64,000 bases of DNA from a bacterium 210917-DFI.7.65. Lineage in GTDB: Bacteria > Bacillota > Clostridia > Oscillospirales > Oscillospiraceae. The translations under genes and the position numbers were made by a program. Shown piece by piece: positions 34,635 through 63,957 of this stretch. Positions within the stretch are counted from its first letter, which is position 1. Every line of letters starts with the position of its first letter. A model generated the notes under the pieces. The model did not search any database. It was not told where the DNA came from and saw only the letters and a list, made by a program, of their open reading frames with translations. The DNA is taken from positions 124,001-188,000 of the forward strand of contig JAJCJJ010000004.1 of assembly GCA_020555865.1 (NCBI GenBank), read 5' to 3'.

Positions 34635-34711
34635 TGGTCGGAGTGTCGGGATTCGAACCCGAGGCCTCATGGACCCGAACCATGCGCGATACCAAACTTC
34701 GCCACACCCCG
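34635..34711 (-). tRNA. tRNA-Pro (anticodon CGG), CCA encoded
   Basis: The minus strand folds into a full cloverleaf. The 7-bp acceptor stem is CGGGGTG/CACTCCG with one G-T pair. The anticodon stem CATGG/CCATG encloses the loop TTCGGGT, giving anticodon CGG. The T arm contains GGTTCGAATCC. The discriminator is A and CCA is encoded. It reads proline CCG codons, with a consensus promoter upstream and a terminator immediately after. Confidence 0.96.
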
Positions 34712-34828: not shown

Positions 34829-34835
34829 AAAAATC

Positions 34836-35097
34836 AAAGACGATGAAGGGAAAAAGATTGGTTTCTCTTTCTTTCAGAGAGCTGGCGGTTGGTGCAAGGC
34901 AGCAGAAACGATCCAATGGATAACTGGTCCCGGAGTTGGCAGTCCGAAACAGACGCGTAGGGCTGCACGGTGAGCACCGTTATATGCTCAGGCCTTGTTG
35001 GAGGCCGATGAGGGTCTGCCGGGTAACCGCAGGCTGAACCAGGGTGGTAACGCGTTAGTACACGCCCCTGACTGAAACAGTCGGGGGCGTTTTTTTC
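34836..35097 (+). promoter_or_regulatory. T-box riboswitch, leucine specific, ahead of leuA
   Basis: The T-box sequence AGGGTGGTAACGCG sits at 35041-35054. A terminator follows: a CGCCCCTGACTG/CAGTCGGGGGCG stem (35063-35089) and a T run. Stem I contains the GGCGGTTGGTGCAAGGC distal region. The specifier loop lies between two helices, ATTGG/CCAAT (34857-34861 with 34913-34917) and GGGA/TCCC (34848-34851 with 34928-34931). The triplet at its end is CTG (34924-34926), a leucine codon. Uncharged tRNA-Leu should therefore allow transcription of leuA. Confidence 0.93.
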
Positions 35098-47021: not shown

Positions 47022-47300
47022 CTCAAAAGAAAAACACCCACCGTCCGCTTCATGCGGACAGAGGGCGTTCACAAACGCGGTACCACCTCTGGTTTACCCA
47101 TATACTCACGCATATCGGTCTCATGCTGTGCCATCACACAGCCTGCGCGTTATCGGGCGCATCCCGGCCAGCCCTACTGCGCTTGTCGGTTCAGGCGGCG
47201 GCTCAGAGGCGTATTCACAAAGTGCGCCTCTCTTCCTTTCACCAAACGGAAGCTCTCTTTACAGGCGGAGACTCTGCTACTCTTCCTCATCATCGCTGAT
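47022..47300 (-). promoter_or_regulatory. T-box riboswitch, tyrosine specific, ahead of EamA-tyrS
   Basis: Read on the minus strand, the T-box AGAGGTGGTACCGCG lies at 47076-47090. A terminator (GTCCGC/GCGGAC core, then TTTTT) lies near 47030-47066. Stem I has the base helix CAGAG/CTCTG (47272-47276 with 47204-47208) and a specifier loop reading GAA-TAC-G. TAC (47211-47213) is a tyrosine codon. A distal GTTTGGTGAAAGG loop is present. Uncharged tRNA-Tyr should switch on the EamA gene, tyrS and the acetyltransferase. Confidence 0.92.
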
Positions 47301-47307
47301 GGGTGCC

Positions 47308-51398: not shown

Positions 51399-53084
51399 TC
51401 AATGCAGCCGGGCGCGGAACTGCTCAGCATCCTCCAACATTTCCTCTGCGCTACGCAGCAATGTGTCCGTAATCTGTGCGCCGCCGGTAATACGAGCCAA
51501 TTCTTTCCGACGCTGCACGCGGGAAAGGCAGGTGATTCTGGTAAACGTTCTGCCGCCCTCTTCTCCCTTTTCCACCAGGAAATGCGCATCGGCCATCGCC
51601 GCCAACTGCGGCAGATGCGTCACGCACAGCACCTGCTTACGCCGTGACACTGCAGCCATTTTTTCCGCCACTTTCTGGGCTGCCCGCCCAGACACGCCGG
51701 TATCCACTTCATCAAACACCAGCGTCATCACGTGATCCGTTTCTGCCAACACATTTTTCAATCCGAGCATGATGCGGGCCAGTTCGCCGCCGGAGGCAAT
51801 TTTATGAATGGGCCGCAACTCCTCGCCCACGTTGGCCGACATCAGGAAACGTACTTGATCCTGCCCATCCCCTTCAAGCGCTTTCGGTTCCACGACGATC
51901 TCAAAGCGCACCTTATTCATATCCAGATCCCGCAGTTCTGCCAAAATCCTTCTCTGCAAATCGCCGGCAGCCTGTTTCCGCGTTTCTGTAAGCCGGTCGG
52001 CAGCCTGCTTTGCCACATCACCTGCAGCATGATATTTCTTTTGAAGCCGCAGCAGCGTATCGTCGGCATATTGAATTTCGTCCAATTCCGCATGGGCACG
52101 TTCCAAGTAAGCCAGCATATCCGCCACGGTGGCACCATATTTCTTTTTCAGCCGATAGATTTCATCCAATCGCCCTTCAATCCCATCCAACTCCGCCGGT
52201 GAGAAATCAAATTGCTCTTTCATATCCCGCACAGTTTCGGCAATGTCATAAAGCTCATGACGCACTTCAACAAGACGGTGCAGCAGAGTAGAAAATACAT
52301 CCCCAAGCTGACGCACTCCTGAGAGGGCGTTTTCAGCCTCTGTAACCTGTGATACTGCCCCGTCGCTGTTTTCACTGCCGTTCAGGCAATAGTTGGCTCC
52401 CTCCATTGCCGCGCTGAAGCGTTCGCCGTTGCGCAGCAGGTTCCGGCGCTCCAGCAGGCGCTCTTCCTCGCCTTCTTTCAGTTCCGCCCGCTCCAATTCC
52501 TCAATCTCCCGCTCCAGGGTATCGATCCGGCGGCTGCGTTCAGCATCGTCCATCTGCATCCGCTCAATATCCCTGCCCAGCGCCCGCATGACGCTATAAG
52601 CTTCCTGATAGGCATGGAGCGGTGCGTCCACCTTGCCAAAGCTGTCCAGATAACGGATATGCTGTGTTTCATCCAACAACTGTTGTCCATCGTGCTGGCC
52701 ATGGATATTGAGCAGCGCCGTCCCGACCTGCCGCAGCTGAGCAGCGGTACAGGGACGGCCGTTGATACGGCATACGGATTTTCCATCGGCCTGGATATCC
52801 CGCTGCAGCAGGAGCATTCCTTCCTCATCGGGCGCAATTCCCTGCCCCTGCAGCACTTCCAGCGACGAATCCACATCTGAGAACATGGCGCTGACCGAAG
52901 CACGCTGTTCCCCCGTCCGCACCAGATCGCGGGAGACGCGCTGCCCCAGCACCGCTCCCATGGCGTCAATCACGATAGACTTTCCCGCGCCAGTCTCGCC
53001 TGTCAGCGCGTTAAAGCCGGGCTGAAACGTAATATCCGCCCGTTCGATCACAGCAATATTCTCAATATGCAGCAATAGCAGCAT
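51399..53084 (-). CDS. recN: DNA repair protein RecN
   Basis: 561 residues, an SMC-like ATPase. The N-terminal Walker A is TGETGAGKS. Long coiled-coil regions span about residues 150-350. The ABC signature and Walker B are IASGGELARIMLGLK and VFDEVDTGVSG. It acts early in repair of double-strand breaks. It follows argR, matching the conserved tlyA-nadK-argR-recN order of Firmicutes. Confidence 0.95.
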   Translation of the reverse strand: MLLLLHIENIAVIERADITFQPGFNALTGETGAGKSIVIDAMGAVLGQRVSRDLVRTGEQRASVSAMFSDVDSSLEVLQGQGIAPDEEGMLLLQRDIQADGKSVCRINGRPCTAAQLRQVGTALLNIHGQHDGQQLLDETQHIRYLDSFGKVDAPLHAYQEAYSVMRALGRDIERMQMDDAERSRRIDTLEREIEELERAELKEGEEERLLERRNLLRNGERFSAAMEGANYCLNGSENSDGAVSQVTEAENALSGVRQLGDVFSTLLHRLVEVRHELYDIAETVRDMKEQFDFSPAELDGIEGRLDEIYRLKKKYGATVADMLAYLERAHAELDEIQYADDTLLRLQKKYHAAGDVAKQAADRLTETRKQAAGDLQRRILAELRDLDMNKVRFEIVVEPKALEGDGQDQVRFLMSANVGEELRPIHKIASGGELARIMLGLKNVLAETDHVMTLVFDEVDTGVSGRAAQKVAEKMAAVSRRKQVLCVTHLPQLAAMADAHFLVEKGEEGGRTFTRITCLSRVQRRKELARITGGAQITDTLLRSAEEMLEDAEQFRARLH

Positions 53085-53135: not shown

Positions 53136-53588
53136 TCACTCGATCATTTTCCGGATATCCTCACAGAATGCCAAAGCGCTTTCGTTGTCTCGCATCACCA
53201 GAAGCACTGTGTCATCTCCGGCCAAAGAGCCTACCAAAACGCTGATGTGCATATTGTCCAGCGCCATGCAGGCTGCAGATGCCAAGCCAGGCAGCGTTTT
53301 TAAAACCACAAGATTCTGCGCACAGTCAAAGCTGCTGACACTTTCCCGAAAGATCGTGCGCAGCCGGCCGGCGTTGCTGAAGGTTTCCTTATGCACCGAA
53401 ACGGCATAATGATAACTGCCGCGCCCGGTTTGTTCTTTAATCAGATGCAGCTCCTTGATGTCCCGCGAAATCGTGGCCTGCGTCACGTTCATGCCGGCAC
53501 TGCGCAGCGCCGCCAGCAGCTGCTCCTGCGTTTCAATCGACTCGGAGGCAATAATCTCCAGAATTTTTTCCTGACGCTTTGCTTTCAT
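53136..53588 (-). CDS. argR: Arginine repressor ArgR/AhrC
   Basis: 150 residues. The N-terminal winged helix begins KAKRQEKILEIIASESIETQEQLL and includes VTQATISRDIKEL. The C-terminal hexamer and arginine-binding domain ends with GDDTVLLV. It controls arginine synthesis and catabolism genes. It abuts nadK, and its presence between nadK and recN is conserved and independent of arginine genes. Confidence 0.95.
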   Translation of the reverse strand: MKAKRQEKILEIIASESIETQEQLLAALRSAGMNVTQATISRDIKELHLIKEQTGRGSYHYAVSVHKETFSNAGRLRTIFRESVSSFDCAQNLVVLKTLPGLASAACMALDNMHISVLVGSLAGDDTVLLVMRDNESALAFCEDIRKMIE

Positions 53589-54461
53589 TTATTTACTCAT
53601 CTCCCGATTCGCCATTTTCCGGCACAGCGTTTCATAAAAGCTCCGATCTTTCAGTTTGATCAGTTCCGTTTCATATTTCGCGCGGCGCACAACCATGCGG
53701 TCTCCCTCCCGCAGCAAAAAGGCCTTTCCCCCGTCCGCGGACAGGTAGACCGTCTTGTTTCCGTTTCCTGCAGAATGCACTTCAATCACCTGATCCGGGC
53801 CAAGCACATACGAAGATGTGGTCAGCGTGTGCGCACAGATGGGAGTGAGCAGGATATTCTGCGCCGCCGGATCCACAATCGGGCCGCCGGCAGAGAGCGA
53901 ATAGGCCGTAGAGCCGGTCGGCGTGGCGAAAATCATGCCGTCTCCACCGATCCGAATGAACTCCTTTTGATTGAGATACATTTGCAGATGGATCACTCGG
54001 GCCACAGCACCTTTCGTAATCACAGCATCATTCAAAACAATGTTGGAATAGACCTGTTTTTCCGCACGAAACACCCGCACATCCAACATCATCCTCGCTT
54101 CGCGCTTTACCTTCCCGCTTTTCAGCTTGCGCAGCAACCCGATATCTGTACTCTCCAGCTCTGCAATATAGCCCAGATTTCCCAAATTGATGCCCAAAAT
54201 CGGCAAATGGTTCACCGCAGCGGTTTTGGCCAAATGCAGGATGCTCCCGTCGCCGCCGAACGCAATCATCAGATCTGCACCCTTGATTGCCGTTTTTACC
54301 GGGAGGTAAGTCAATTCCTTCGGTAAAACATCTCCCTCCGGCTGGAAGGGAAGGCTGATCACGCTTTCAATACCCTCTTCTGCCAAAATTTCGCGTACTT
54401 TCTGTGTCATGCGCAGTCCATGATCCCGGTAGGGATTCGGGCATAACACGATCTTTTTCAT
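53589..54461 (-). CDS. nadK: NAD kinase
   Basis: 290 residues from the ATG at 54461 (MKKIVLCPNPYRD), preceded by a GGTGAGG site. The GGDGSILH motif near residue 70 binds ATP, and TPTGSTAYSLSAGGP is the conserved NAD-binding loop. It makes NADP from NAD. It lies 5 bases after tlyA and abuts argR. Confidence 0.95.
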   Translation of the reverse strand: MKKIVLCPNPYRDHGLRMTQKVREILAEEGIESVISLPFQPEGDVLPKELTYLPVKTAIKGADLMIAFGGDGSILHLAKTAAVNHLPILGINLGNLGYIAELESTDIGLLRKLKSGKVKREARMMLDVRVFRAEKQVYSNIVLNDAVITKGAVARVIHLQMYLNQKEFIRIGGDGMIFATPTGSTAYSLSAGGPIVDPAAQNILLTPICAHTLTTSSYVLGPDQVIEVHSAGNGNKTVYLSADGGKAFLLREGDRMVVRRAKYETELIKLKDRSFYETLCRKMANREMSK

Positions 54462-54466
54462 TTTCC

Positions 54467-55273
54467 TCACCCCTCGCCCCTAAATGCGCGGTGGGACGCA
54501 TCGATCACCGCCTGCAGATCCAGTCTGCGGCCACGGCCTGCCCCCTTCTCCAGAAAGCCAAGATATTCAATATTGCCCTCCTGTCCCGTAATGGGGGAAT
54601 ACGTCAGATCCAGAACCGAAAAATCGGCAGCTTCTGCATGCTCCAGATACTGTTCCAACACCATCCGGTGCACTTTTGGATCGCGCACGATCCCTTTTTT
54701 CCCAACAAACTCCCGGCCGGCTTCAAACTGCGGCTTGATCAGGCTCACTACCTGCCCGCCTTCGCGCAACAGATCATGAAGGGCCGGAAAAATCAGTTTC
54801 AGAGAAATAAACGAAACGTCCACCGATGCAAAATCCAGCGGATCCGGTACCTGTGCACGACTCAGGTACCGCGCGTTAGTACGCTCAAGCACTATGACCC
54901 GTTCATCGCTGCGCAGTTTCCAGGCCAGTTCGCCGTAGCCCACATCCACCGAATAAACCTTTTTCGCTCCGTTTTGCAACATACAGTCAGTAAAGCCACC
55001 GGTGGAAGCACCGATATCAGCGGCTGTGCAGCCGTTAAGATCGATGGGAAACACTTCCATAGCCTTTTCCAGCTTGAGACCGCCTCGTCCCACATAGCGC
55101 AGCGTATTGCCGCGTACTTCCAGCGGGATGGTATCCTCCACACTCATACCGGCTTTATCCAGTTTCCGGTCACCGGAAAATACCTCTCCGGCCATAATCA
55201 GCGCCTGAGCCTTTTGGCGGCTTTCCGCCAGGCCGCGTTCCGTGACAAGCACGTCAAGTCGCTTTTTCGCCAT
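54467..55273 (-). CDS. tlyA: TlyA family rRNA (cytidine-2'-O)-methyltransferase
   Basis: 268 residues. An N-terminal S4 RNA-binding domain (KKRLDVLVTERGLAESRQKAQALIM) is followed by a FtsJ-like methyltransferase domain with the SAM motif DIGASTGGFTD. The family methylates rRNA 2'-OH groups; older names call it hemolysin. It overlaps the end of dxs by 20 bases, so the two are coupled. Confidence 0.93.
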   Translation of the reverse strand: MAKKRLDVLVTERGLAESRQKAQALIMAGEVFSGDRKLDKAGMSVEDTIPLEVRGNTLRYVGRGGLKLEKAMEVFPIDLNGCTAADIGASTGGFTDCMLQNGAKKVYSVDVGYGELAWKLRSDERVIVLERTNARYLSRAQVPDPLDFASVDVSFISLKLIFPALHDLLREGGQVVSLIKPQFEAGREFVGKKGIVRDPKVHRMVLEQYLEHAEAADFSVLDLTYSPITGQEGNIEYLGFLEKGAGRGRRLDLQAVIDASHRAFRGEG

Positions 55274-57125
55274 GCCCCAAGGCCTCCTCTACAGCAGCGG
55301 CAACGCTTGCGCCATCCAGCGCCTTGGCTTTACGCAGCAGCGAAACGCTGCCCTGCGCCGTATAGGCATTGCCGAGATTTTTCAAAAGAATGGTACGCGG
55401 CAAAGCGTTTTTCTTCGCCAGTTCCGCCGTCAGGCGCTGCCCTACGCTGCCGTTTTCCACGCAGTCTTCCAAAACCAGGAATCCCCCGGTTTTTTCCACC
55501 GAAGCCGCAACGGCATCCACATCCAGCGGAACAATGGTGTTGAGCTTTATGATTTCTGCCGAAATTCCTTTTTCCTCCAGCAGATCCGCCGCCGTGAGCA
55601 GTTCATTGAACAGCACACCGTAGGATACCAGTGTAAAATCCTTTCCTTCCCGGCAGCATTCGGAAGCACCGCAGGAAAGGCCTTTGTATGCGCCCTCTCC
55701 GCCGCGCGCATACCGCACAGCCACAGGCCCGGAATCTTCCAGCACGGCGCGCTCCAACATGGCGCGCATCTCCGCAAAACTGGCTGGGCAATAAATCCGG
55801 ATCCCTGGGAGCTGGCTGAGATATCCTACATCAAAAACGCCATGATGCGTTTCACCGTCTTCGCCCACCAGTCCGGCGCGGTCTACTGCAAACACCACAT
55901 GGAGCTGCATCAACCCCACATCGTGAAGCAACATATCGAATCCGCGCTGCAGAAAACTGGAATAAACGGCAAACACCGGCACCATGCCCTGGGCCGCCAT
56001 ACCGGCCGCCATAGCCACCGCATGCCCCTCGGCGATGCCTACATCAAAAAAGCGCTCCGGGTAATCTTTTGCAAAAAGATCCAGCCCCGTACCAGATTCC
56101 ATGGCCGCCGTGATGGTGCAGATGCGCGCGTCCTGCCGTGCCAAATCGCACAGCGTTTTTCCGGCAACCTTACTGAAATTTTCCCCGGAAAGCTTTAAAA
56201 CCATCCCGGTCTGCGGATTAAAGGGCGCGACCCCATGAAAACGATCGGGGTTTTCCTCTGCAAAAGAATACCCTTTCCCTTTCACCGTATTCACATGCAC
56301 CACCACCGGCGCGCGAAGTTCCTTGGCCCAATTGAGCACATGGCACAACTGATCCAGATCATGCCCATCTACAGGCCCCAGGTACTGAAATCCCATGTCC
56401 TCAAAAAAGCTGCAGGGCCACAGCGCTTTTTTGACACTGGTCTTTACCCTGTGGACGCCGTGATACACGGCCCTGCCACCGGGAAGATGGTGCATCATGT
56501 TGTGATAACATTTTTTGAACTGATAATATCCGGGCCGTGTGCGTATGCGCGCCAAATGCGAAGCCACGCCGCCCACGTTCTGCCCGATGGACATGCCATT
56601 GTCGTTCAGCAAGATAATCAGCGGTTCCTGCGAGGCGCCGGCATTGTTCAGCCCTTCGTAGGCCAGACCGCCTGTCAGGGCACCGTCCCCAATCAGCGCA
56701 AGCACACGGTAATCGGCGCCCTGCAAGGTTCTGGCCCGCGCCATCCCCAGCGCCACCGACACTGAGTTGGACGCATGCCCTGCAACAAAAGCATCATGGA
56801 CACTTTCATGGGGCTTGGGGAACCCAGACATTCCTCCAAAACTGCGCAGCATGGAAAACAGCGCTTGCCGCCCCGTCAGGGCCTTATGCACATAGCACTG
56901 ATGGCCCACATCAAAAACAAGGCGATCCTTCGCCGTATCAAACACGCGATGGATCGCCACGGTCAGTTCCACCGCGCCAAGATTCGACGCCAGATGTCCT
57001 CCGGTTTCAGATACCGAATCCAGCAAAAAAGCGCGCAGTTCTTCACATAGCTGTTTGCATTCCTCCGATGAAAGTTTCTTCACATCATCCGGAGAAGCAA
57101 TCATTTTCAAAATAGTATGTTTCAT
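55254..57125 (-). CDS. dxs: 1-deoxy-D-xylulose-5-phosphate synthase
   Basis: 623 residues, full length. The first enzyme of the non-mevalonate isoprenoid pathway joins pyruvate and glyceraldehyde 3-phosphate using thiamine diphosphate. GHQCYVHKALTGR, the ThDP motif GDGALTGGLAYEGLNNAG...NDNGMSIG, and DRAGLVGEDGETHHG are intact. It lies 42 bases after the OapA-like gene, the same neighbour order as in Bacillus halodurans OLE loci. Confidence 0.97.
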   Translation of the reverse strand: MKHTILKMIASPDDVKKLSSEECKQLCEELRAFLLDSVSETGGHLASNLGAVELTVAIHRVFDTAKDRLVFDVGHQCYVHKALTGRQALFSMLRSFGGMSGFPKPHESVHDAFVAGHASNSVSVALGMARARTLQGADYRVLALIGDGALTGGLAYEGLNNAGASQEPLIILLNDNGMSIGQNVGGVASHLARIRTRPGYYQFKKCYHNMMHHLPGGRAVYHGVHRVKTSVKKALWPCSFFEDMGFQYLGPVDGHDLDQLCHVLNWAKELRAPVVVHVNTVKGKGYSFAEENPDRFHGVAPFNPQTGMVLKLSGENFSKVAGKTLCDLARQDARICTITAAMESGTGLDLFAKDYPERFFDVGIAEGHAVAMAAGMAAQGMVPVFAVYSSFLQRGFDMLLHDVGLMQLHVVFAVDRAGLVGEDGETHHGVFDVGYLSQLPGIRIYCPASFAEMRAMLERAVLEDSGPVAVRYARGGEGAYKGLSCGASECCREGKDFTLVSYGVLFNELLTAADLLEEKGISAEIIKLNTIVPLDVDAVAASVEKTGGFLVLEDCVENGSVGQRLTAELAKKNALPRTILLKNLGNAYTAQGSVSLLRKAKALDGASVAAAVEEALGHGEKAT

Positions 57126-57167: not shown

Positions 57168-57743
57168 TTATTTTCTTTTGACCATATGGATCACGCGGGA
57201 TACTGAATGTACTACCTGCGTACTGTTGTTAATAGCAATTTTTTTGCCGATCGCTTTACCGCCAATGGTCAATCCGGAAACCAGCGCCGAAATCACAAGA
57301 GACATCACCATAGAATCCAAGTCAAAAGAGGTGCAGAGCTTCGTTACAATCACCGCCGCGGTGGAACCGCTGACAATACCGGAAATATCGCCCACCACAT
57401 CGTTACACACACTGCTGACTTTTTCGGCGTTGCGGATTAGCTGCATCGCGCAGGAGGCGCTCTTTTCGCCGTGAGCCGCCATGGAATGGAACGGGCGCTC
57501 TTCCGCCACTGTGACCGAAACGCCAATGATATCAAACACAATGCCGATCAGGATAAATGCCGCCAGCAGCAAAAAGGCGATAATATATCCCGCCCCGTTG
57601 AGCACATTGGATGACACCAAGCTGAACACAGCCGAAATGATGATGGACATCAAAAAAATTTTTGGTATCCAGTAATCCCGCTTCTTCTTCCCCTTTTCAC
57701 CAATCTGCTTCTTTCCTCTGCCCGCTTTTTGGCTGTCCAACAA
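57168..57743 (-). CDS. oapA: OLE-associated membrane protein OapA
   Basis: 191 residues. A basic N-terminus (GRGKKQIGEKGKKKR, residues 8-22) is followed by about four hydrophobic helices (roughly 29-45, 51-77, 116-136, 145-167). A DVVGD (DxxxD) motif sits at residues 115-119. OapA is the membrane protein that binds OLE RNA in Bacillus halodurans; it is about this size, has four helices and lies between OLE and dxs. All three traits are seen here. The identification rests mainly on context and topology. The basic N-terminus suits RNA contact. Confidence 0.85.
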   Translation of the reverse strand: MLDSQKAGRGKKQIGEKGKKKRDYWIPKIFLMSIIISAVFSLVSSNVLNGAGYIIAFLLLAAFILIGIVFDIIGVSVTVAEERPFHSMAAHGEKSASCAMQLIRNAEKVSSVCNDVVGDISGIVSGSTAAVIVTKLCTSFDLDSMVMSLVISALVSGLTIGGKAIGKKIAINNSTQVVHSVSRVIHMVKRK

Positions 57744-57788
57744 AGAAACCTCCCATATCCGTCAAAACAATACAAACAAAAATAAAAC

Positions 57789-58426
57789 GCTAAACAGGAC
57801 GGCAGCATCAGAAGTAAATCTTACGGCTTAGGTACGGGTAGGCTTTCCCCATGGAGCGCCGCGCGTTTCCGCTTGGCGGTTTCCCTTTCAGCTCCATGTC
57901 AGCGCGTTGCCAACGCTGCGACCCGACTGCCACTTAGTCCGCACTGCAATCCTTCTGATACCCGGGAATCGACAGCCTAGGTGTTTTCCACAGCAGTCAA
58001 CCCATTTCTTAGCCTCTTTTGCAGCCGTGGTTTCAGCGGGCGATCGCAGCACTTCCCTGGCCGGGGAAGGCCTGCGTAGTTCCCGCATTCACCACGCCCA
58101 CTCAAGGCAGGCTACTCTGCACATAGCGACTTTGGAGCGAAGCCGCCCCAGCTGCACCACATTGCAGGTTTAACCCTGCTTCGTAACAAGTCACAAGCCT
58201 GCAGGCAGGTTTTACCTTGGCTCATCACAAGAGCAGGTCTCCACGGTAAGAGGGTCGAACTTGCATGCCGTTGCAAGCCGCCCCCAAACCTTAACCCCCA
58301 GCATCCACCCCAAACTGGGCGTAAGAAGCAAACACCAGGGACTTCATCGATATGCCCTTCAAAGGATTTTTAGGCCCTTCCTGGTAAACGGTTGAAACTG
58401 ACTAGGATACTGCGCCGCTGTTTAGC
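57789..58426 (-). ncRNA. ole: OLE (ornate large extremophilic) RNA
   Basis: A 638-base non-coding stretch lies between ispA and the OapA-like gene. Its ends are complementary (GCTAAACAG at 58418-58426 pairs with CTGTTTAGC at 57789-57797, minus strand), which would close the whole RNA. Internal helices include ATGGAGC/GCTCCAT (57851-57857 with 57891-57897, enclosing CCGC/GCGG), ACCAGG/CCTGGT (58334-58339 with 58380-58385) and CTTGCA/TGCAAG near 58260-58277. It has no credible ORF. OLE RNAs are about 600 bases and are found in exactly this operon (xseA-xseB-ispA-OLE-oapA-dxs-tlyA). A dedicated promoter lies just upstream. Confidence 0.87.
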
Positions 58427-58434
58427 AATTTTTA

Positions 58435-58462
58435 ATTATATCAAATTCCTGAAAATATGCAA
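58435..58462 (-). promoter_or_regulatory. Promoter of the OLE RNA
   Basis: On the minus strand TTGCAT (58457-58462) is followed after 16 bases by a perfect TATAAT (58435-58440). The expected start of transcription is near 58427, exactly where the 5' arm of the terminal helix begins. OLE, oapA and possibly dxs can thus be made independently of the xse-ispA transcript. Confidence 0.8.
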
Positions 58463-58509
58463 GTTTTATTCATTGCAAAACCGGTCATTTTTCGTATTTT
58501 TCACACTGT

Positions 58510-59412
58510 TTAGCGCCGTCTCAAGGCCAATTTATCCGCTATTGTGCATAAAAACTCTGTTTTTTGTTTCCATTCTCCCGTATTCAGAGCCTCTTTTGCC
58601 CGCTCGGTATAATCCAGCACACGGCGCTCGCACTCATCGCGGCCCAACAGCGCCACATAAGTGGATTTCTTATTCGCCGCATCCGAACCGATAGGTTTAC
58701 CAAGCTCTTCTGCCGTGGCAGTCACATCCAGGATGTCGTCACGGATCTGAAACGCGAGCCCCAGATATGTGGCATAGTCCCGGGCAGCGGTCATGCAGCT
58801 GTCGTCCACCGCCCGACGCCCCATGGCCGCTGCCACGCCCATCATGCAGGCAGCACGCAGCAACGCCCCGGTTTTGTGATCGTTGATCTCCGTCAGTTCT
58901 TCCGCCGTGCGGCTTTTTCCATCTCCAATGGTATCCAAATACTGACCGAGACACATGCCGCGCTCCCCGGCCGCTTCCGCCAGGATCTGCGTGGCGTACG
59001 CACGCGCGGCTCCCTCCCCGGCGCTCCAGTTTCCCTTCGCAGAAAGCACCGCAGAAAAAGCCGCTGCCTGCAGCGCGTCGCCCGCCAAGGTCGCAATGCA
59101 CTCGCCGTAAACTTTGTGGCAAGTAGGACGGCCCCGGCGCAGATCGTCGTTATCCATGCAGGGCAGATCATCGTGAATCAAAGAGTAAGTGTGCAGCATT
59201 TCCACACCACATCCAAAGTCCAGCGCCTCTTCCATGGTTCCGCCCGCCGCTTCGCAGAATTTCATGGTCAGAATCGGCCGGATGCGCTTTCCGCCCGCCA
59301 TCAAACTGTACCGCATGGCCTCTTCCAGTCCGCTGTCCGTAAAATATTCTGCCAAGCGCGCTTCCACCATGGCTCGCGCCATTTCCATTTCCTGAGCAAA
59401 CATATCCGCCAT
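58510..59412 (-). CDS. ispA: Polyprenyl (geranyl/farnesyl) diphosphate synthase IspA
   Basis: 300 residues. The two aspartate-rich motifs are IHDDLPCMDNDDLRRGRPT and QIRDDILDV. The GGKRIRP motif lies near residue 38. It condenses IPP with DMAPP to make farnesyl diphosphate, the primer for UppS. It abuts xseB directly and precedes the OLE RNA by 84 bases. Confidence 0.95.
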   Translation of the reverse strand: MADMFAQEMEMARAMVEARLAEYFTDSGLEEAMRYSLMAGGKRIRPILTMKFCEAAGGTMEEALDFGCGVEMLHTYSLIHDDLPCMDNDDLRRGRPTCHKVYGECIATLAGDALQAAAFSAVLSAKGNWSAGEGAARAYATQILAEAAGERGMCLGQYLDTIGDGKSRTAEELTEINDHKTGALLRAACMMGVAAAMGRRAVDDSCMTAARDYATYLGLAFQIRDDILDVTATAEELGKPIGSDAANKKSTYVALLGRDECERRVLDYTERAKEALNTGEWKQKTEFLCTIADKLALRRR

Positions 59413-59652
59413 TTATGCTTCCTCCCCGCTGTCAAACGGCTCTTCCCGCGGCGTTCCGTCGGCGCTTTTGACCAGCCGGACCACTTTCTGCTCCGCTTTA
59501 CCCAGCAGATCTGTACAGGAAGATACCAGCCTGGTTCCCTCTTCAAACAGTTTCAAAGAATCCGCCAGGGGCGCGTCGCCTTTTTCCAAAACGGCCACAA
59601 TCTCCTGCAAACGCTCAATGGATTGCTCAAAACTCAGTTTTTTTTCTGCCAT
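59413..59652 (-). CDS. xseB: Exodeoxyribonuclease VII small subunit
   Basis: 79 residues, the family size. SFEQSIERLQEIVAVLEKGDAPLADSLKLFEEG (all within residues 5-40) is diagnostic. It forms exonuclease VII with XseA, encoded 2 bases upstream, and degrades single-stranded DNA. The stop abuts the ispA start. Confidence 0.96.
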   Translation of the reverse strand: MAEKKLSFEQSIERLQEIVAVLEKGDAPLADSLKLFEEGTRLVSSCTDLLGKAEQKVVRLVKSADGTPREEPFDSGEEA

Positions 59653-59654
59653 TT

Positions 59655-60878
59655 TTATGCCTTCTCTCCCTTCCGGATGCCATCGACGGTGCAGTCCAGG
59701 CTGCCGTCGCCCAAAGTGACGGTGATTGCCTGTCCCACCTCTGTCTGTTCTATACTTCTCAAAAGCTGTCCCGTTGTGTCCTTTGCCACAGAGTAGCCCC
59801 TTCCCAAAACTTTCAATGGGCTGAGTGCATCCAACGATGCTGCCAGCGCAGCAAACTGCTGACGCCGGCGGGCCAGGTCAGCCTGCGCCAGGCCCGTAAG
59901 CTTCCGGTGGAGCAGGTCCAGTTCCATGCGTTTATCCTGCACCGCAGCAGCAGGATTCCGCAGAATACGGCTTTCGGAAAACGTTTGCAAGGTCTGCCGC
60001 CGCAGCTGCAGGCTCTGCCGGAGCACTTGGAGCATGTGGGCACGGGCACCGGACAGCTGCGCCGCCAGCTCCACAGCATCCGGCACAGCGATCTCCGCCG
60101 CATTGGACGGCGTGGACGCCCGCACATCCGCTACAAAATCGGAAATGGTCACATCCGGTTCATGTCCCACAGCGGAAATCACCGGAAGCTCCGATTCATA
60201 AATGGCGCGGGCCACCCGCTCGTCATTAAAGGCCCACAAGTCTTCCATGGAACCGCCGCCCCGGCCTGTGATAATCAGGTCCGCCACCCTCCAGCGGTTG
60301 GCATAGCGAATCGCGCCTACAATCTCCGGAGCCGCTTCAACGCCCTGCACGCGCACCGGCAAAACAATCACTTTGCAAATTGGATAACGCCGGCGAAGAA
60401 TCCGGAGCATATCGTGTACCGCAGCTCCGGACCCAGAGGTAATGATGGCGATACGCTGCGGAAACGGGGGCAGCGGTTTTTTATGGGACGCATCAAACAG
60501 GCCTTCCTGATACAGCCGCGCCTTGAGCTGTTCGAAAGCCACGGCCAAGTCGCCTGCGCCTTCCGGTGTAACGGCATCGCAGTAGAGCTGATACTGTCCG
60601 TCCCGCACAAATGCCGTAATCCGTCCCCGCACGATCACCTTCATACCGTTTTCCAGCCGAAAGCGAAGATGCGCGGCACTGGAACGGAACATGACGCAGC
60701 GCAGTACTCCCTCCGGATCTTTCAATGTAAAATAGTGATGCCCGGAAGGGTAAATTTTATAATTGGACAACTCGCCGCGCACATAAAGGTCCTGCAGAGC
60801 CGGCACGCCGTCCAGCATGGTTTTGATGAACTGATTGACCTCAGCCACCCCAAAAATGTGTTTTTCACTTCCGCTCAT
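59655..60878 (-). CDS. xseA: Exodeoxyribonuclease VII large subunit
   Basis: 407 residues from the ATG at 60878, which overlaps the TsaD-like stop (ATGA) and has GGGAGG upstream. The N-terminal OB domain has VRGELSNYKIYPSGHHYFTLKD. The catalytic part has GSGAAVHDML and RGGGSMEDLWAFND. The long helical tail binds XseB. It carries out exonuclease VII hydrolysis in both directions. Confidence 0.96.
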   Translation of the reverse strand: MSGSEKHIFGVAEVNQFIKTMLDGVPALQDLYVRGELSNYKIYPSGHHYFTLKDPEGVLRCVMFRSSAAHLRFRLENGMKVIVRGRITAFVRDGQYQLYCDAVTPEGAGDLAVAFEQLKARLYQEGLFDASHKKPLPPFPQRIAIITSGSGAAVHDMLRILRRRYPICKVIVLPVRVQGVEAAPEIVGAIRYANRWRVADLIITGRGGGSMEDLWAFNDERVARAIYESELPVISAVGHEPDVTISDFVADVRASTPSNAAEIAVPDAVELAAQLSGARAHMLQVLRQSLQLRRQTLQTFSESRILRNPAAAVQDKRMELDLLHRKLTGLAQADLARRRQQFAALAASLDALSPLKVLGRGYSVAKDTTGQLLRSIEQTEVGQAITVTLGDGSLDCTVDGIRKGEKA

Positions 60879-61813
60879 CGCTGCGCCTCCCGGCTTTCCC
60901 AAACGCGGCGCGCCAAAACGGCAATGCCCATCGCATTGTCCCGCGAATACTCCGGCAATGCAAACACCGTATCCTGCAATACAGAGCGGAGCACAGAATT
61001 CGACGCCACACCACCGGAACAGAGCACCGGCAATCCAGGATACATTTTTTTAGCAGCATTCGTGACCCGATAGACTGCCCCAACCACAGTATCCACCGCA
61101 AAGCGGGCAATGTTCGCTTCTGTTTCTCCCATTTCCCGCAGTGATTTCACTTTGTTTTCCACTCCGGAAAGCGAAAAGTACAATTCATTCACTTTCACAC
61201 GAAAAGACGACGTACTATCTGCCCGATAATAAAGCTCGTCCACATATTTTCCCGCAGGAAACGGCAGGCCCAGCAAAACGCCAGTACGATCCAGCAGCTG
61301 CCCGGCAGAAATATCCGTGGTGCCGCCGATTTTTTCCGCATAAGGCACCCCGTTTTTGGGCTGCACCAGTAAAAGTTCTGTAGTGCCGCCGGAAAGATGC
61401 CAGGCAAGAAACGGCTGATCCAGCAAATCTTCCCGCCCGGCAGACCAAGCCGCTGCCGCCAGATGGCCCTGTTGATGCGAAAACTCCATATACTCTGCGC
61501 CCAAAACACTGGCAAGGGTTTTCGCTTCACAGACGCCAGCAAGAAAACAGGGCATATAAGAGTCCTCCGCTGCGCGCGGACGGCTGCTGGCTGCCACCAC
61601 TTTTGCCTGATGCAGATCGTCCCGATCCGTTAAAAGCCGCGCCACAACTTCAGGAAGGCGTCGGACGTGCAAAAAAAGGGCGTCGCTCTGCCGCAGCCCC
61701 AACGCGCCCTGCGGCACATCCAGGATACGGCTTTCGTTCCGCCCTTCGCGGCCGTCCCACCAGGCGGCCGAGGTTGTATAGTTACTGGTATCAAATCCCA
61801 CACACAATGCCAT
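60875..61813 (-). CDS. TsaD-like (Kae1/M22 family) paralogue
   Basis: 312 residues, shorter than standard TsaD. The fold motifs GFDTSNYTTS near the start and HQQGH at residues 113-117 (the metal-binding HxxxH) are present, as are LSGGTTELL and SGGVASNS. True TsaD makes the t6A tRNA modification. This clostridial paralogue lies between nusB and xseA in many Firmicutes, and its role is not established. No tsaB or tsaE is nearby. Confidence 0.85.
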   Translation of the reverse strand: MALCVGFDTSNYTTSAAWWDGREGRNESRILDVPQGALGLRQSDALFLHVRRLPEVVARLLTDRDDLHQAKVVAASSRPRAAEDSYMPCFLAGVCEAKTLASVLGAEYMEFSHQQGHLAAAAWSAGREDLLDQPFLAWHLSGGTTELLLVQPKNGVPYAEKIGGTTDISAGQLLDRTGVLLGLPFPAGKYVDELYYRADSTSSFRVKVNELYFSLSGVENKVKSLREMGETEANIARFAVDTVVGAVYRVTNAAKKMYPGLPVLCSGGVASNSVLRSVLQDTVFALPEYSRDNAMGIAVLARRVWESREAQR

Positions 61814-62813: not shown

Positions 62814-63374
62814 TTAATTTGCCTCCATGATCTTGATTTTATCAGCCGTCAGCCCGGTTTCTTCCATGACAATGTCCGTAACCTTGGCGATATCAGAATT
62901 CTGCAGCCCCTCTCCTGTGCCGGCAATCACCACGCTGACACTTTCCTTATTGACAAACGCCACACAGTCGCTGTAACCTTTGGCCATCACCAGATTTTCA
63001 ATGGTGGCCTCCGTCGTGGTGTTCTGGGCAATCTGCTGAATCTCCCGGTTGGCTTCATCGATTGCCGCTTGATCTGCCTTTTCATCCGCCGCAGCCTCCT
63101 TGAGCAGGCTGAGCGCGCTGTCTCTGGATTCCTGGCGGTTGAGACGCGCTGTGTCAAAATAATTCTTTTTTGCCCCAAAGGCTTCCTGATCCTCTCCGGA
63201 AGCGTCTTCCTCCAGGGATGATCCATCCGCTGTGCCGCTCACCAGTGCGGACTCTCCAAGAATTTTGCCTACATTCGCCGCGCTTTGTGAATAATTCCAG
63301 TTCAGGTATGCCGCCGCGCTGACAAACAGCACCACCGTCAAGATCATCAGATTGCGTTTCATTTTTTTATTCAT
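62814..63374 (-). CDS. spoIIIAH: Stage III sporulation protein AH
   Basis: 186 residues from the ATG at 63374 (MNKKMKRNLMILTVVLF), which has GAGGTG upstream. One N-terminal membrane helix (residues 9-24) precedes a variable Asp/Glu-rich linker. The C-terminal ring-building domain includes GKILGESALVSG and the DSALSLLKEAAADEKA stretch. SpoIIIAH forms a channel with SpoIIQ across the double membrane around the forespore. It lies at the end of the spoIIIA operon. Confidence 0.93.
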   Translation of the reverse strand: MNKKMKRNLMILTVVLFVSAAAYLNWNYSQSAANVGKILGESALVSGTADGSSLEEDASGEDQEAFGAKKNYFDTARLNRQESRDSALSLLKEAAADEKADQAAIDEANREIQQIAQNTTTEATIENLVMAKGYSDCVAFVNKESVSVVIAGTGEGLQNSDIAKVTDIVMEETGLTADKIKIMEAN

Positions 63375-63402
63375 GGTCCTTTTCACCTCATATAAGAATT
63401 TT

Positions 63403-63957
63403 TTAAGATTCCGTCCGCCTGGCAACGGAAATACAATCGCTTCCAAGCCCTGTCAGCACAGACACAGCCTCTTTTACTTTCAGCACTGTACCTGAATTGC
63501 CAGCGCCGTCGCATACCACCAGCGCCCCCACATAAGGCGGGTAGAGCTCCTGCGTCTGCAGCGCTTCGTCTCCGCTGCCGCTGCGGTCCAGCAGTACAGT
63601 CTGCGTAGTGCTGGTATAGTCCTCCGGCGTACTGGCCGGACCGCTGTAGGAGATCTCCCGGTCGCTTTGATACACGCGCTGTATGCCGGAGGCTACTGTC
63701 AGCATAACGCGCACACGCCCCACACCATCGATATCGGATAAGATTTCCTCAAGCTCTTTCTGTGTCTGTTCCACTGAAAAGTCCGCAGCATTTTGCAGCT
63801 GCGCAGTGCGGGCATCTTGTCCTTTTTCACCGCCGAATGAGGGCATCAGCATCAGTAAGATCCCCACTGCCGCTATCAGCAGCACGAAGCGGTATTTTGA
63901 GATCAACTCCATCGGTTTTGCCAGCGGCAGTATCTTTTTGTCCAAAATGGTTCTCAC
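63403..63957 (-). CDS. spoIIIAG: Stage III sporulation protein AG
   Basis: 184 residues from a GTG at 63957 with the start inside the spoIIIAF stop (GTGA). One membrane helix (about residues 24-40) is followed by the ring-building motif (LEEILSDIDGVGRVRVMLT) and a later second conserved block (PPYVGALVVCDGAGN). It forms the large ring of the SpoIIIA-SpoIIQ channel. It ends 28 bases before spoIIIAH. Confidence 0.92.
   Translation of the reverse strand: MRTILDKKILPLAKPMELISKYRFVLLIAAVGILLMLMPSFGGEKGQDARTAQLQNAADFSVEQTQKELEEILSDIDGVGRVRVMLTVASGIQRVYQSDREISYSGPASTPEDYTSTTQTVLLDRSGSGDEALQTQELYPPYVGALVVCDGAGNSGTVLKVKEAVSVLTGLGSDCISVARRTES

Follow-up and report, generated by a model that had tools for sequence, protein, structure and literature searches.

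A full-length OLE RNA and its partner gene oapA in the xseA-to-recN cluster of a member of the Oscillospiraceae

The 64,000-nucleotide stretch of DNA analysed here (the window) carries on its minus strand a full-length OLE RNA and, next to it, the gene of its partner OapA. OLE is among the largest structured RNAs known in bacteria and OapA is its membrane-protein partner; their role in stress is known from Halalkalibacterium halodurans. In the preferred reading, to which a probability of about 0.88 is given, ole would be transcribed from a likely promoter of its own inside the xseA–recN cluster, the RNA would dimerise, OapA would hold it at the membrane, and the particle would help the cell to cope with stress and with a load of metal ions, as it does in H. 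halodurans. The comparisons below show the RNA family and its full length, the contact loops, the identity of OapA, the gene order and the OapB and OapC genes of the relatives.

Identity and structure of the OLE RNA

57783–58434, minus strand: OLE RNA, 652 nt, full-length (Rfam RF01071)
58418–58426, minus strand: closing helix, 5′ strand, 9 bp with 57789–57797 (read from the sequence)
57789–57797, minus strand: closing helix, 3′ strand (read from the sequence)

The Rfam OLE model RF01071 (gathering score 50) matched positions 58434–57783 of the minus strand with 457.5 bits (E 4.5 × 10−131) and over model positions 1–616 of 616, the copy being 652 nt long and of the full-length form. The earlier note had placed an OLE RNA at about 57750–58450 of this strand and had proposed the RF01071 search, and the end-to-end match confirms it. 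The matching ends claimed for the non-coding stretch were found as well, the two ends of the RNA pairing over nine bases, GCUAAACAG (58426–58418) with CUGUUUAGC (57797–57789). The folding energy was −270.8 kcal/mol, compared with a shuffle mean of −238.9 (sd 6.8; z −4.7), and none of 20 shuffles folded as stably. That the stretch is free of open reading frames was nearly right: ORFs of 66 aa (minus strand, 57888–58088) and 88 aa (plus strand, 57907–58173) lie inside the RNA and are taken, by assumption, as chance.

Besides OLE, the above-threshold Rfam matches in the whole window were two T-box leaders and one tRNA, and nothing further. The T-box leaders, both above the gathering score, lie at 34834–35072 (plus strand), with the tRNA nearby at 34638–34711 (minus strand), and at 47058–47302 (minus strand).

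The structure was compared across 74 aligned OLE sequences, window included, with helix names (P3, P5.1 and the like) assigned here from their order and from the descriptions in papers. Relative to the Rfam model the window OLE carries an extra 19 nt and a net extra 22 nt, as insertions, in the arms labelled P7 and P8. These arms average 51.8 nt each over the 74 sequences; the values for the window are 56 and 54 nt, which makes the insertions usual among relatives; P7, P8 and P9 are of normal length and the P13 loop is kept. The P5.1 arm measured 54 nt in the window, compared with a mean of 73 nt (54–89) across the 74 sequences, and 59 nt by a second measure, which gave 58–60 nt in a wider set (23 of 30 measured). 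The closest relative likewise has a short P5.1, so the window keeps a short arm, which many relatives have lengthened by about 20 nt.

The loops of P4, P5.1/P6.1 and P9 form dimer contacts in cryo-EM (PMC12286853, PMC12265935). In the window the A-rich P4 loop, the P5.1/P6.1 pair and the P9 GGCC are all present, and they are largely kept in the relatives: the A-rich P4 loop and the GCCCA of P5.1 are nearly invariant alignment columns, GCCCA being found by plain text match in 72 of the 74 sequences; GGCC lies within the P9 span in 70; and the P6.1 loop, which pairs with GCCCA, fits NGGCA in 55 (UGGCA in 50, CGGCA in five including the window; 19 unmatched).

A membrane-spanning model of OLE would expect a P3 of constant length (PMC12265935). 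The 5′ arm of P3 measured 24–26 nt in 73 of 74 sequences (26 nt in the window; one unmatched), P4 and P6 being equally constant, and 24–25 nt in all 30 copies of the wider set, which comprises the 30 best-scoring of 148 genomes and is no fair draw. The 3′ arm measured 19–21 nt in the alignment but 25–54 nt by text anchors (38 of 74 matched); several of these anchors fitted part of the sequences only, and the P7/P8 anchor rows misplace the window through a repeated motif. The constancy of P3 is non-specific, and the membrane-spanning model is not proved by it.

The OapA protein and further particle partners

57168–57743, minus strand: oapA, 191 aa, TTG start with GGAGG ahead (relatives beside OLE, DVVGD motif, CNNM-like AlphaFold2 model)

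The TTG start of oapA lies 39 nt from the OLE RNA. Relatives of the gene were collected by a species-genome scan, the best 80 of 559 showing 83 % to 50 % identity; the titles of these 80 name Oscillospiraceae, Ruminococcaceae, Clostridia and Eubacteriales, with the genera Oscillibacter, Sporobacter and Papillibacter, and the order that contains them is presumably Oscillospirales. An alignment of 28 OapA sequences, window included, has 39 invariant columns, and D115-VVG-D119 is invariant in 28 of 28. The motif DxxxD is a mark of OapA that CNNM domains are without, and absence of the conserved CNNM proline is another OapA feature (PMC11332333); by its sequence, DVVGD would fit the DxxxD described there.

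The AlphaFold2 model of the 191-aa protein (pLDDT 76.5) has four long helices (25–50, 53–79, 106–137 and 142–172), with which the hydrophobic stretches of a hydropathy scan coincide; the four-helix membrane protein of the earlier note is thus borne out at the level of prediction. The six best PDB fold matches of the model were all CNNM/CorB/CorC transporters (E 1.2 × 10−3 to 0.49), none reaching E 0.001. The sequence search against solved structures and the scan against NCBIfam gave no match, and the Pfam CNNM match was weak (E 4.8 × 10−4) and below the cut-off. The check on OapA proposed in the earlier note also came out positive, by the relatives beside OLE, the motif and the fold; the Pfam and NCBIfam libraries gave no OapA profile match. 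The relation of OapA to CNNM proteins is already in print (PMC11332333).

Further partners were sought in the genomes of 50 of the 80 oapA loci (best 80 of 559), which stand in for the window's host. A 94-aa protein encoded between map and infA in one relative matches OapB (PDB 7k9b, E 7 × 10−8). An OapB profile found the protein in 41 of the 50 genomes; among the nine without a match is the closest relative, the assembly of which is broken at infA, and in the other genomes read OapB lies at this gene. The KOW domain (PF00467) was rejected as an OapB probe, as its 12 matches in eight genomes included eight that could be named, six NusG and two ribosomal L24. L7Ae-family proteins occur in 39 of the 50 genomes, including some of a longer type near IF2; in 17 of 30 loci looked at, one lies near an S12 (rpsL) pattern. 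The OapC of the closest relative lies beside rpsL and matches YbxF/OapC with E 4 × 10−12, compared with E 4 × 10−5 for YlxQ. Judging by OapB and OapC in these genomes, the OLE particle is likely the standard one. CNNM matches were present in 49 of 50 genomes; 16 pass the Pfam cut-off, seven of them strong (160–182 bits, MpfA-like) and nine at 28–32 bits, and the rest are weak like OapA itself. The presence of a strong MpfA-type CNNM protein in only seven of 50 genomes is in line with the published anticorrelation. As a separate observation, the OapC–rpsL locus of one relative (L123, within 1224–1343) holds an ARG-box-like site with a score of 14.5.

Gene order and distribution

59655–60902, minus strand: xseA (TIGR00237)
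59413–59652, minus strand: xseB (TIGR01280)
58510–59412, minus strand: ispA, farnesyl diphosphate synthase (NCBIfam NF045485)
55254–57125, minus strand: dxs (TIGR00204)
54467–55273, minus strand: tlyA (TIGR00478)
53589–54470, minus strand: nadK (Pfam NAD kinase domains)
53136–53588, minus strand: argR, arginine repressor (PF01316, PF02863, TIGR01529)
51399–53084, minus strand: recN (TIGR00634)
62814–63446, upstream of xseA: SpoIIIAH (one of five upstream ORFs scanned)

By Pfam and NCBIfam the minus-strand order is xseA, xseB, FPP synthase, OLE, oapA, dxs, tlyA, nadK, argR, recN, which confirms the OLE operon order from xseA to recN that had been recognised in the window. It was compared with 52 loci, each longer than 12 kb, that surround related oapA genes. 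All 52 have the order OLE-oapA-dxs-tlyA-nadK, recN follows in 49, and the complete xseA-to-recN order is seen in 24; in 25 no xseA, xseB or ispA match lies ahead of OLE, which there heads the block. Since nadK is present in 52 of 52, it is a standard member among the relatives and not the addition that the earlier note had supposed.

The description of the locus as lying beside spoIIIA genes holds for SpoIIIAH, no other spoIIIA gene being found among the five upstream ORFs scanned. Genes for TsaD-like, NusB and Asp23 proteins lie between SpoIIIAH and xseA, and the upstream ORF at 63403–63957 had no match in the profile scan. Downstream of the cluster lies a xanthine/uracil-type permease gene.

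In three relatives, large lipoprotein-like genes (724–879 aa) lie between ole and oapA (L072: 3574–5880; L008: 919–3174 and 3251–5890; L041: 460–2634). Scans of three of these proteins gave one solute-binding match just below the cut-off and nothing for two; the proteins are possible new neighbours of the OLE particle.

A search with nhmmer and the window OLE found OLE in 81 of 81 loci (those of the best 80 of 559 oapA relatives, and L081), 26 of the matches being incomplete or lying over 200 nt away from the portion of oapA that was matched. In the closest relative (L001 and L081, both genome G001) OLE is split across two contigs by an assembly break. Of 199 genomes sampled from the phylum to which one relative belongs, 148 have OLE, and 2,822 OLE genomes are reported in Bacillota (PMC11332333); for this reason the find is ordinary in kind: the OLE–oapA pair is known and common in related bacteria, and the window copy is a further member that by itself adds one to a family of thousands. 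The same 148 of 199 genomes speak against the strict anaerobe as an unusual setting; occurrences of OLE in anaerobes and of its reduced forms in gut microbes have already been reported (PMC11332333).

Candidate promoter and operator-like element of ole

58435–58462, minus strand: candidate OLE promoter, TTGCAT (58462–58457), 16 nt, TATAAT (58440–58435) (sequence and relatives)
58450–58473, minus strand: candidate operator, 24 nt, two TGNATA half-sites 11 nt apart, overlapping the −35 element (conservation)

The pattern TTGNNN-N15–19-TAYNMT was fitted by 62 of 72 ole upstream regions of relatives. The window −35 element TTGCAT agrees with the consensus at three of six positions, and a generic promoter scan listed another site, at 58524–58496, instead of the proposed one; the ole promoter of the window is a prediction from sequence. 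Among relatives' ole promoters with an extended −10, the −35 element is TTGNAT in 29 of 32. Among the 78 other extended −10 promoters of these loci TTGACG (23) and TTGACA (10) are preferred, with TTGTAT in 11; at least 13 of these 78 controls have TTGTAT or TTGCAT, and two of them lie on the opposite strand of ole-upstream DNA.

Among 1024 gapped hexamers of the form XXNXXX, TGNATA was the most enriched in 69 ole-upstream windows, with 81 occurrences compared with 15.6 expected from shuffles. On either strand, at least one half-site occurs in 53 and at least two in 41 of 70 ole windows, as opposed to 16 % and 2 % of 106 composition-matched controls; among 29 ole promoters outside the clade, six have at least one and none has two or more. 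With the −35 element excluded, a half-site is still present in 42 of the 70 windows. Kinship was treated roughly by grouping the promoters into 47 similarity clusters; the median number of half-sites is one or more in 33 clusters and two or more in 25.

The commonest inverted geometry is TATNCA, 8 nt, TGNATA, and many relatives' ole promoters form a 20-bp element, TATNCNGNATATNNTGNATA. Of 40 relatives' genomes, the listed sizes of which add up to about 96 Mb, 24 have it, and 25 of 26 fetched loci were ole promoters, the remaining one lying inside a gene; as the 40 genomes were chosen in the knowledge that many ole promoters carried the element, its presence at ole is partly circular, its absence elsewhere not. 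Because it is found at two distances from the RNA, one group having it over the −35 element and another ahead of a −35 element that is separate from it, it is not a mere promoter hexamer. Among 394 genomes of the order the 20-mer occurred in 51 and a reversed control in 11. Two of 30 fetched places were at ole, and the other 28 comprised 18 inside a frame of at least 120 aa and 10 that were not; across the wider order the element is not tied to ole, by the places fetched, and may have other targets. The window is without the 20-mer and has a diverged version only. Its positions 58450–58473 share 23 of 24 bases with the closest relative (L081); farther upstream the two hardly align, and conservation continues downstream, through the promoter into the RNA.

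Alternative readings

The OLE match could be a long structured leader that acts in cis on the oapA-dxs-argR-recN block, with no free RNA. Its place upstream of oapA and the following block in all 52 long loci, at the head of the block in 25 of them, would suit such a leader, as would the finding that no intrinsic terminator was detected in 57650–58650 and none between OLE and oapA. In L008 and L072, however, OLE and oapA are 5.1 and 2.4 kb apart and separated by other genes; in L041, where OLE is cut by the contig end, the distance is 2.4 kb; and the OLE of H. halodurans has a promoter to itself and is abundant as a separate RNA (PMC9723947). We regard a pure leader as improbable. Still less credit, next to none, is given to a decayed or reduced copy of the variant 1 or 2 type, as in the gut clades TANB77/RF39. 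To judge by their titles, several relatives are MAGs from gut or rumen, and reduced OLE forms are reported from gut clades (PMC11332333), but the match to the whole model, positions 1–616 of 616, already refutes such a copy, and the normal P7, P8 and P9 and the kept P13 loop speak against it as well. For the full-length OLE RNA with OapA, which is the preferred reading, we infer the dimer, the membrane anchoring and the stress role from the H. halodurans literature and from clostridial OLE as studied by cryo-EM.

A further proposal concerns the control of this RNA: in Oscillospirales, ole would have a dedicated operator and be switched by the ArgR encoded in the same cluster, which would also bind the RNA. 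The enrichment of TGNATA at ole, in number and over controls, counts in its favour. The argG regions of the same genomes have the same half-sites in 29 of 29 windows and at least two in 24; by the ARG-box consensus, these boxes are taken to be of the ArgR type. With a matrix built from 29 argG sites, a score of at least 8 was reached by 29 of 30 argG regions, same sites included, by 19 of 70 ole windows, by four of 486 controls and by three of 94 controls of like composition; nine of the 47 promoter clusters have a median of at least 8. In four relatives argR is missing from its place between nadK and recN, and no ArgR match was obtained anywhere in the genome; the other 15 of the 19 genomes examined have one. 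Three of these four genomes have look-alike promoters and no half-site at ole, whereas two or three half-sites are present in five look-alikes that do have ArgR; the loss amounts to one or two events and is no proof, and the fourth genome (L067) keeps some half-sites. Against the proposal, 14 of 58 argR-bearing loci are without half-sites, none of the 29 usable ole upstream regions outside the clade (30 less L218, which has no upstream DNA) scores at least 8, and the TATNCA-8 nt-TGNATA geometry differs from a canonical ARG box. Several ArgR targets would be expected, whereas the 20-bp element is nearly confined to ole in the 40 genomes. The window's own site is weak, its ole promoter failing as a canonical ARG box with a score of 4.2, compared with 7.1 in the closest relative. 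A link between box and operon layout was discarded, scores of at least 8 occurring in 9 of 29 loci with ispA just upstream and in 7 of 30 without (P 0.57), so that the sites are no commoner where OLE heads the block. Control of ole by ArgR may thus be entertained as a possibility, though a doubtful one. In H. halodurans ArgR contacts OLE RNA (PMC10898510); the portions of the literature on OLE RNA with ArgR that were covered mention no operator at ole, and the OLE RNA literature covered, likewise in part, says little on ole regulation and does not contain the 20-bp element.

If ArgR does bind at ole, the proximity of ole and argR and the ArgR–OLE contact in H. halodurans would be parts of a single circuit, and ArgR, controlling ole as DNA and binding the RNA, would connect nitrogen status with the OLE stress particle in a closed loop. 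The 20-bp element, which in the 40 genomes marks ole in 24 and occurs once elsewhere, would offer a handle on ole regulation.

Comparison with known systems

With the full-length class of RF01071 the window RNA shares the whole-model match, the gene cluster, the contact loops and the adjoining OapA, and it differs in its P7/P8 insertions and the candidate promoter element. The window protein resembles OapA in position, size, DxxxD motif and CNNM-like predicted fold; in this comparison, made from sequence and model, divergence of sequence is the only difference seen. Its weak CNNM match and best fold matches are shared with the CNNM magnesium transporters MpfA, CorB and CorC, from which it differs in having only 191 aa and no detected CBS or CorC domain. 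The ole promoters of the relatives have the TGNATA half-site in common with ArgR operators (ARG boxes, by their consensus), as at argG, and are set apart by the geometry of the element and by the near confinement of its long form to ole in the 40 genomes.
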